Shown here piece by piece: positions 4,928 to 6,091 of a stretch of DNA of 11,867 nt. The notes beneath the pieces are model-generated. The model worked only from the letters and a program-made list of their open reading frames with translations, did not search any database and had not been told where the DNA came from. Made by a program: the position numbers and the translations under genes. Numbering within the stretch: the stretch's first letter is position 1; every line of letters begins with the position of its first letter. Source of the stretch: Thermoplasmatota archaeon (lineage in GTDB: Archaea; Thermoplasmatota; Thermoplasmata; Thermoplasmatales; Thermoplasmataceae); contig JAMCUD010000114.1 of assembly GCA_023379355.1 (NCBI GenBank), positions 1 to 11,867 on the forward strand, in the 5' to 3' direction.

Positions 4928-6091
4928 TCACTCACCTCCAAGAATGTGGACTACAGAGTTCGAGCCTGTTCCCCCCATGTTATGAACCAATGCCCGGTTC
5001 GCACCCTTTATCTGCCTATCTCCGGCCTTCCCAACAAGCTGCCTGTAAGCTTCAACTATCTGCCCGACACCTGTGGCCCCCAGCGGATTTCCCTTTGCCT
5101 TGAGACCTCCGGATGGGTTTACCGGGATTTCCCCCTTCAATGATATATTGTCGTAGACTAGTTCCTTGGCTTTCCCAGGCTCAGCAAACCCCATTTCCTC
5201 AAGTTCGAGGAGACCATAAATGCTGTACGAGTCGTGCAGTTCAATGAAAGAGAGATCCTTGTTTTTCAAGTGAGCTTTTTCCATAGCCTTTTTAGCTGAG
5301 AGCCTCACAGAGGCCAGGCTGTATATATTTTTCCTGCTATGTACTGCGAGATAGTCCTGAGCGTCAGCAGAGGCAAGTATCTTTGCGCCATGAAGCTTGT
5401 TCTTCTTTATATAACGCTCAGAAGCAAGTATGACTGCAGCAGCTCCATCACCCATTGCACTGCAGTCCATCAGGTTAAGCGGTTCAGCCACATCCATTGC
5501 CTTCATGGCCTGTTCCAGCGTGATCTTATTCCTATACTGAGCATCCGGATTCAGGCTGGCGTTTGCGTGATCATTAACGGACATCATGGAAAGTGCTTCC
5601 TTTTCAACTTTGAAATCCCTCATATACTTTCTCGCCACTATGGCGGCAAGTGCTGCTGGGGTCGCTCCAAAAAATGCTTCCCATTCCCTGTCCAGGACTG
5701 AACTGGTGAGATCCAGAAGTTCAGAACCGAATATATCTGTCATCTTTTCAACGCCACCCACCATGGCAACGTCGAATTCCTCTGCCTTTATTCCCAGATA
5801 TGCCTGCCTTACTGCTGCACCACCTGAGGCAGTGGATGCTTCGATCCTTATGGCAGGAGTGTGCTGTTCAGCTATTCCAGAGAAATCAGAAAGAAGGTCA
5901 CCTATATTCTCCTGGCCACTTATGATCCCGGCCAGACTGTTGCTCCCGTAGAGGACCTCTATATCTTTGGAGAATATTCCTGCATCTTCAACAGCCTTGA
6001 GCCCAGCTTCTACTGCGAGTTCCCTTAATGACTTCTCCCAGAGTTCCCCGTATTTGGTTTCTCCAGCCCCTATTATATAAACATCACTCAA
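4928..6091 (-). CDS. Archaeal acetoacetyl-CoA thiolase homologue lacking the catalytic Cys and GHP His
   Basis: About 387 residues, co-linear with archaeal acetyl-CoA acetyltransferases (SCP2-thiolase-like family), which join two acetyl-CoA for the mevalonate pathway. Family landmarks are kept: SDVYIIGAGETKYGELW at the N terminus, GGVEKMTD, EWEAFFGA, DCSAMGDGAAAV, ELHDSYSI (His of the HDCF motif, about 286), NPSGGLKAKG and HNMGGTGS (about 370). Two key residues are not. Where the family has EAACASGG with the nucleophilic Cys, this protein reads EASTASGG (Thr codon ACT at 5831-5833), and GHPLGATG reads GNPLGATG (Asn codon AAT at 5087-5089). Its only Cys is the one in DCSAMGDGA. The frame is otherwise intact. 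The start is taken as TTG 6091, which has GGTGA (6097-6101) five bases upstream and gives the family-typical N terminus; GTG 6100 lies within that ribosome binding site. It overlaps the HMG-CoA synthase end by 8 bases. Activity is doubtful. Confidence 0.88.
   Translation of the reverse strand: MSDVYIIGAGETKYGELWEKSLRELAVEAGLKAVEDAGIFSKDIEVLYGSNSLAGIISGQENIGDLLSDFSGIAEQHTPAIRIEASTASGGAAVRQAYLGIKAEEFDVAMVGGVEKMTDIFGSELLDLTSSVLDREWEAFFGATPAALAAIVARKYMRDFKVEKEALSMMSVNDHANASLNPDAQYRNKITLEQAMKAMDVAEPLNLMDCSAMGDGAAAVILASERYIKKNKLHGAKILASADAQDYLAVHSRKNIYSLASVRLSAKKAMEKAHLKNKDLSFIELHDSYSIYGLLELEEMGFAEPGKAKELVYDNISLKGEIPVNPSGGLKAKGNPLGATGVGQIVEAYRQLVGKAGDRQIKGANRALVHNMGGTGSNSVVHILGGE
4932..4939 (-). 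promoter_or_regulatory. Strong ribosome binding site of the DUF35 gene
   Basis: GGAGGTGA on the minus strand, complementary to the archaeal 16S 3' end, encoded within the last thiolase codons and 4 bases before the ATG at 4927. It is the best ribosome binding site in the window. Confidence 0.8.

Follow-up and report, generated by a model that had tools for sequence, protein, structure and literature searches.

The question raised by this locus is why an archaeal mevalonate operon keeps a thiolase gene whose catalytic residues have been replaced. The stretch analysed (hereafter the window) comprises 11,867 nucleotides of contig JAMCUD010000114.1 from a Thermoplasmatota archaeon of the family Thermoplasmataceae (assembly GCA_023379355.1). 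On its minus strand it carries a compact unit of three genes, encoding an archaeal 3-hydroxy-3-methylglutaryl-coenzyme A (HMG-CoA) synthase (HMGCS), a thiolase-fold protein and a DUF35 protein. The thiolase-fold protein is probably a repeatedly evolved pseudo-thiolase, which serves HMGCS and DUF35 as a structural and CoA-site partner, with a classical thiolase making the acetoacetyl-CoA. The features concerned are listed below.

6084..7139, minus strand: archaeal HMGCS (NF003274/TIGR00748), the upstream gene, overlapping the thiolase start
6804-6806 and 6900-6902, minus strand: catalytic Cys and Glu of HMGCS, both kept
4928..6100, minus strand: putative pseudo-thiolase, SCP2-type thiolase fold, PRK06064/NF004720 subfamily, 390 amino acids (aa), GTG start at 6098-6100
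5831..5833, minus strand: nucleophile position, Thr (ACT) for the Cys that corresponds to Cys85 of the M. thermolithotrophicus thiolase (PMC6392133)
5462..5464, minus strand: only Cys of the protein (TGC), in the loop DCSAMGDGA; ancestral, not the nucleophile
5228..5230, minus strand: Cys position of the HDCF loop, Ser (TCG); the loop reads HDSY and keeps its His (5234-5236)
5087..5089, minus strand: GHP-loop position, Asn (AAT) for His
4526..4927, minus strand: DUF35 protein (zf-ChsH2 + OB_ChsH2_C), with its ATG directly after the thiolase stop

HMGCS scored above cut-off with both NF003274 (564 bits) and TIGR00748 (553 bits). The thiolase-fold protein reached 475 bits with NF004720, 'thiolase domain-containing protein' (PRK06064; cut-off 420), and stayed at 402.9 bits below the cut-off of 600 for the acetyl-CoA acetyltransferase equivalog NF053570. 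Its gene lies between those of HMGCS and DUF35, as in the archaeal thiolase/HMGCS/DUF35 complex. The frame is intact, as a preliminary description of this DNA had stated; the end coordinate of 6091 given there has to be extended to the GTG listed above.

Alignment with chain A of 6ESQ placed EASTASGG on EAACASGS, HDSY on HDCF and GNPLGATG on GHALGATG. The codons and this alignment bear out the preliminary description: the nucleophilic Cys is replaced by Thr, the GHP His by Asn and HDCF by HDSY, and the protein has a single Cys. No other residue comes to stand at the nucleophile position. The window protein was further compared with 120 homologs, being those listed among the 4301 that passed the E-value. 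Cys was found in 0/121 sequences both at the nucleophile column (Thr 74, Ser 47) and at the HDC column (Ser 120, Ala 1), and His in 1/121 at the GHP column (Asn 95, Asp 21, Tyr 4). A sequencing error at the catalytic codons is ruled out by the 120 homologs sharing the Cys loss. Since none of the 121 aligned sequences has the nucleophile Cys, the loss is, on sequence grounds, a fixed feature of the lineage. Loss of the HDC Cys would not be decisive by itself, as 7YVY has Ala there. With all three catalytic residues (acyl-accepting Cys, GHP His, HDC Cys) replaced, the thiolase half-reactions would be left without nucleophile and base, and the subunit would therefore no longer be able to perform the Claisen condensation. 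The remaining Cys was considered as a substitute nucleophile and rejected. It is the ancestral Cys of the DCSPxSDG loop, present in 69 of 71 full-length HMGCS-linked thiolases that retain the nucleophile Cys (keepers) and absent from 25 of 159 full-length ones that do not (losers), three of these 25 being free of Cys altogether.

Beyond these positions the protein is preserved. The predicted fold is intact (template modelling score 0.93 to 6ESQ, the closest structure, at 41% identity, the VIA-align rows being a second look at the Foldseek hits only), and the thiolase gene is under purifying selection, in agreement with the earlier statement that the rest of the fold is well conserved and that this is not simple decay. 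The ratio of nonsynonymous to synonymous substitution (dN/dS) was low, with a median of 0.024 over 37 pairs; it carries little weight, since dS is saturated in many cases, and dS was infinite for the one window pair given. In the Asp/Gly/Glu group the medians were high for all three genes (0.32-0.46), which is taken as saturation. Between keepers and losers, 56 columns are conserved to at least 95% in both groups and 28 are relaxed. In losers, the columns beside the lost residues are relaxed and the thiolase evolves faster relative to HMGCS. Stop codons occurred in only one of the operon-type matches listed, in the draft G002.

The same arrangement was found well beyond the window. At 47 loci from named genomes, DUF35 adjoins the thiolase in all cases and HMGCS in 45, the two others being cut by contig ends. 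Thr or Ser occupies the nucleophile position at 35 of these loci; the 12 more distant ones have Cys in 11 cases and Asp in one (L043, UBA202). An operon-type thiolase was matched in 109/117 genomes of the order of Ferroplasma acidarmanus, and a matching thiolase in 197/243 genomes of a sample of the phylum, 192 of which were typed. From the phylum sample and the window's order together, 267 thiolases were typed; for 233 of them (161 from the phylum sample) the fetched stretch also contains HMGCS and the nucleophile column could be read. Among these 233, 74 keep Cys and 159 do not (Thr 55, Gly 41, Ser 36, Asp 22, Glu 3, Ala 2). The GHP His is retained in 45 of the 159 losers, and all three catalytic residues are gone in the other 114; the residues replacing His vary (Asn, Asp, Phe, Tyr, Gln, Arg or Cys). 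His is present in 71 of the 74 keepers (two gaps, one Asn) and the full Cys/Cys/His set in 53. The catalytic Cys of HMGCS was present in 194/194 covered rows of the first typed set.

Graded states exist within the order: Cys/HDA/His; Ser with HDA or HDS and His; Ser (one Ala) with HDS and Asn; and, as in the window, Thr or Ser with HDS and Asn, Asp, Tyr or Phe. These intermediates reject a clean one-step loss, and HDA alone still fits an otherwise complete thiolase such as 7YVY. The phylum sample likewise rejects a restriction of the Cys loss to the window's order. On the HMGCS tree, the nucleophile state changes at least 8 times by parsimony, which leaves the direction unfixed. Mapping the two positions across Thermoplasmata had been proposed at the outset; the loss proved widespread and recurrent, and with 74 of 233 proteins keeping Cys the picture drawn earlier was too uniform.

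As a control, further genomes were inspected in which the closest thiolase has no archaeal-type HMGCS next to it within the stretch retrieved, and this thiolase keeps Cys in 29/29. A thirtieth row, G137, has Gly and no HMGCS in its stretch; because DUF35 adjoins it, it is read as a truncated operon. As a general rule, the idea that Cys loss marks only the HMGCS-linked place was rejected, since 4YZO-like proteins and GGGATGG-type paralogs are also Cys-less. The 4YZO-like proteins (4YZO is Sulfolobus tokodaii ST0096) L184, L185, L187 and L057 have the nucleophile loop VDNTSGSGG or VDNTTASG, and the first three keep GHP. The paralogs with GGGATGG or a similar nucleophile loop (L068, L070, L071, L072 and L075; RIEGGGATGG, in L070 TTGGATGG) have frames of 423-441 aa and keep the GHP/GHA His. 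In the converse direction, 46 genomes of the phylum sample had no matching thiolase, and in the 20 of these that were examined no archaeal-type HMGCS was found, by a query that matched G001 and G016. Among 11 genomes of the order without an operon thiolase, 10 had no HMGCS; the remaining one, G016, has HMGCS at a contig end (the positive control Fer1 was matched).

A source of acetoacetyl-CoA outside the complex was sought among classical thiolases. A PF00108 search of five genomes of the order (Ferroplasma acidarmanus Fer1 of L012, Thermogymnomonas acidicola of L032, E-plasma of L044 and two metagenome-assembled genomes) showed that such enzymes are present. Where complete, their loops read C/NEA(F or Y)/GHP/CxGGG; Thermogymnomonas gave fragments only. 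TIGR01930 scored above cut-off in 95/117 genomes of the order and 192/243 of the phylum sample. In the genomes of the 12 distant named loci it did so once, in that of L043, the only one of the 12 with its Cys replaced. All of 40 fetched classical thiolases have Cys, Asn and His, and the last Cys is present in 38 and falls in a gap in two; they derive from the best-scoring rows of 39 genomes, 38 with losers and one, G153, with a keeper. The preliminary description had suggested a search for a second thiolase with intact residues, and in related genomes it was successful: G104, the genome nearest to the window (85% identity), contains two intact classical thiolases (L330, L331).

Presence of a classical thiolase, scored at E <= 1e-60, was then crossed with the nucleophile residue. 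It was present with 151 losers and absent with 8, and present with 24 keepers and absent with 50 (Fisher odds ratio 39, p 4e-24, a value that overstates the association because the genomes are related). In the phylum sample alone the counts with and without were 94/6 for losers and 24/37 for keepers; in the order alone they were 85/2 and 0/17, this table (n=104) including G068 and G075, which have no HMGCS in their stretch. From these counts, a classical thiolase seems to permit the loss rather than to force it. A two-trait Markov model on the HMGCS tree, a tree of one gene, preferred dependence (likelihood ratio 35.1, 4 d.f., p 4.5e-7), with a Cys-loss rate of 1.38 in the presence of a classical thiolase and 0.08 in its absence, and little regain. 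Correlated-evolution models are generous when events are few. The two kinds of thiolase can also be neighbours. In G010 (L347 1782-6807), a classical thiolase stands head to head with the HMGCS of an HMGCS/Ser-type thiolase/DUF35 operon, with 138 bases between the listed frames; its loops are intact, its frame is partly masked as N, and it adjoins a likely 3-hydroxyacyl-CoA dehydrogenase. In G049 and G050, two genomes of the order, about 7-8 kb separate a classical thiolase from HMGCS (L338 3213-4391; L348 10492-11670).

Several observations weigh against a pseudo-thiolase supplied from outside. Eight HMGCS-linked losers have no detected classical thiolase (G031, G034, G177, G135, G180, G302, G257 and G294), although drafts can hide genes; the PF00108 search took in six of them (G031, G034, G177, G135, G180 and G302), and G135 has a classical thiolase fragment at a contig end. 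The 24 keepers with a classical thiolase show that the link is not strict. A strict independent-pairs test with 5 supported pairs was not significant (median p 0.25), its trend being in the expected direction (2.6 against 0.1, with 2.3 showing no difference). Cys-less thiolase-fold proteins without an adjoining HMGCS, the two families described above, exist in the same order. Finally, the nucleophile column of the window clade and its sister group is nearly confined to Thr and Ser (n=80: Thr 55, Ser 24, Ala 1), and the HDS loop has for the most part kept its His. The restriction to Thr and Ser is tighter than a free position needs and is unexplained by the favoured reading; packing at the start of the helix or the retention of a ligand may require the hydroxyl.

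These last two features are what a changed chemistry would draw on, that is, a Cys-free reaction on CoA esters, such as an aldol reaction, hydrolysis or decarboxylation, using the HDS His and the Thr/Ser hydroxyl. A precedent exists in the steroid aldolases Ltp2-ChsH2(DUF35) and Sal-Shy(DUF35) (PDB 6OK1, 9MYR), in which, as would also be the case in the window system, a DUF35-bound thiolase fold does not work as a thiolase (PMC12329534). Those enzymes, however, need the Tyr that comes first in YDHF/YDCY (with Cys in addition in Sal), and the C304S variant of CtSal is dead (PMC12329534). The window has His first in HDSY; steroid-aldolase chemistry was therefore rejected. There is also no common new catalytic set, as Gly, Asp, Glu or Ala occupies the nucleophile column elsewhere and diverse residues replace the GHP His. 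In losers, moreover, the columns beside the lost residues are relaxed. This option, which the preliminary description had left beside the scaffold, is thus weakened by the variation between lineages and the missing Tyr, and we consider it unlikely.

Still less probable is a weak thiolase, in which Thr or Ser would act as a poor nucleophile and acetoacetyl-CoA would still be supplied within the complex. Thr or Ser in 91/159 losers (55 and 36) and the unchanged operon position would suit it, but 68/159 losers have Gly, Asp, Glu or Ala instead, 114/159 are also without both the GHP His and the HDC Cys, and a Cys-to-Ala variant of the related PhlC is inactive (PMC6392133). Ongoing decay of a protein without a role, with deletion still to come, would account for the faster evolution of losers and the 28 relaxed columns, but we give it hardly any credence. 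It is opposed by the 56 strongly conserved columns, the low dN/dS (read with the saturation of dS), the confinement of stops to one draft among the matches listed, and the failure to find, contig ends apart, HMGCS without the thiolase.

The favoured reading is set against known systems as follows. In the M. thermolithotrophicus complex (6ESQ), DUF35 joins thiolase and HMGCS, all three proteins contribute to the interface that binds CoA, and the acetoacetyl unit passes between the active sites without release (PMC6392133, PMC12329534). The window shares the three proteins, the thiolase fold and the HMGCS Cys and Glu; it differs in having Thr, HDSY and GNP where the 6ESQ thiolase has Cys85, HDCF and the His of GHA. 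The Friedel-Crafts acylase PhlABC (PDB 5M3K) has the same three-part architecture with one subunit lacking key catalytic residues, yet as a mirror image: the HMGCS-like PhlA is without Cys (Gly115) and Glu, the thiolase-like PhlC is active via Cys88, and a functional enzyme results only when the whole operon is expressed (PMC6392133). Mycobacterial TLP1 is likewise a thiolase fold without the catalytic residues and lacks thiolase activity, but unlike the window protein it is monomeric and has an extra C-terminal domain (PMC3406046). Pyrococcus furiosus PFC_04095 (PDB 7YVY), with Cys and GHP His kept and HDAF, resembles those thiolases of the window's order that keep Cys together with HDA.

By analogy with M. 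thermolithotrophicus, where DUF35 ties both enzymes and all three proteins form the CoA interface, a dead thiolase would be retained because HMGCS and DUF35 physically need it or are built around it. A separate classical thiolase would make acetoacetyl-CoA, which would come to HMGCS from beyond the complex, perhaps by way of the former thiolase pocket and the shared CoA site, and the same hand-over would have taken place several times within Thermoplasmatota. The combination of a scaffold and another thiolase, proposed in the preliminary description, thus receives strong comparative support from the kept fold and operon, the recurrent and varied loss and its tracking of classical thiolases; for the scaffold role itself, we infer it from these patterns. 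More tentatively, the pocket might be an antechamber, in which the dead thiolase still binds the acetoacetyl-CoA made by the classical thiolase and hands it to HMGCS over the shared CoA site; the complex would then have turned from producer into receiver of the intermediate several times in one phylum, in settings where a classical thiolase was available. We regard this as a possible rather than a probable extension. The thiolase-like relative TbSLP presumably lacks the N-terminal Cys. According to its structure titles, it was crystallised with acetoacetyl-CoA.

The remainder of the window encodes a Hef-like helicase frame (165-1745, 526 aa), which covers positions 14-519 of the 781-position Hef nuclease model below cut-off and is without the nuclease part. 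Three frames (326, 384 and 223 aa; 3503-4483 and 7701-9523) have no NCBIfam match at E <= 0.001, and the first two are by eye rich in membrane stretches.

The architecture of the complex was already known. A dead-thiolase variant, its recurrence or a link to classical thiolases did not show up by title or abstract start in the open-access literature, a search that did not cover the original complex paper, and the variant appears to be new. If the favoured reading is true, a core complex of lipid synthesis needs its thiolase subunit for more than the reaction of that subunit, and the structural and catalytic roles in channelling would be separable in the archaeal mevalonate pathway. The phylum would offer a natural experiment, with repeated loss of the active site of one subunit where the intermediate is available from another enzyme. 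The acetyl-CoA C-acetyltransferase labels on several of the closest homologs are probably functionally wrong, and for acetoacetyl-CoA synthesis in these archaea one would have to look to the classical thiolases.
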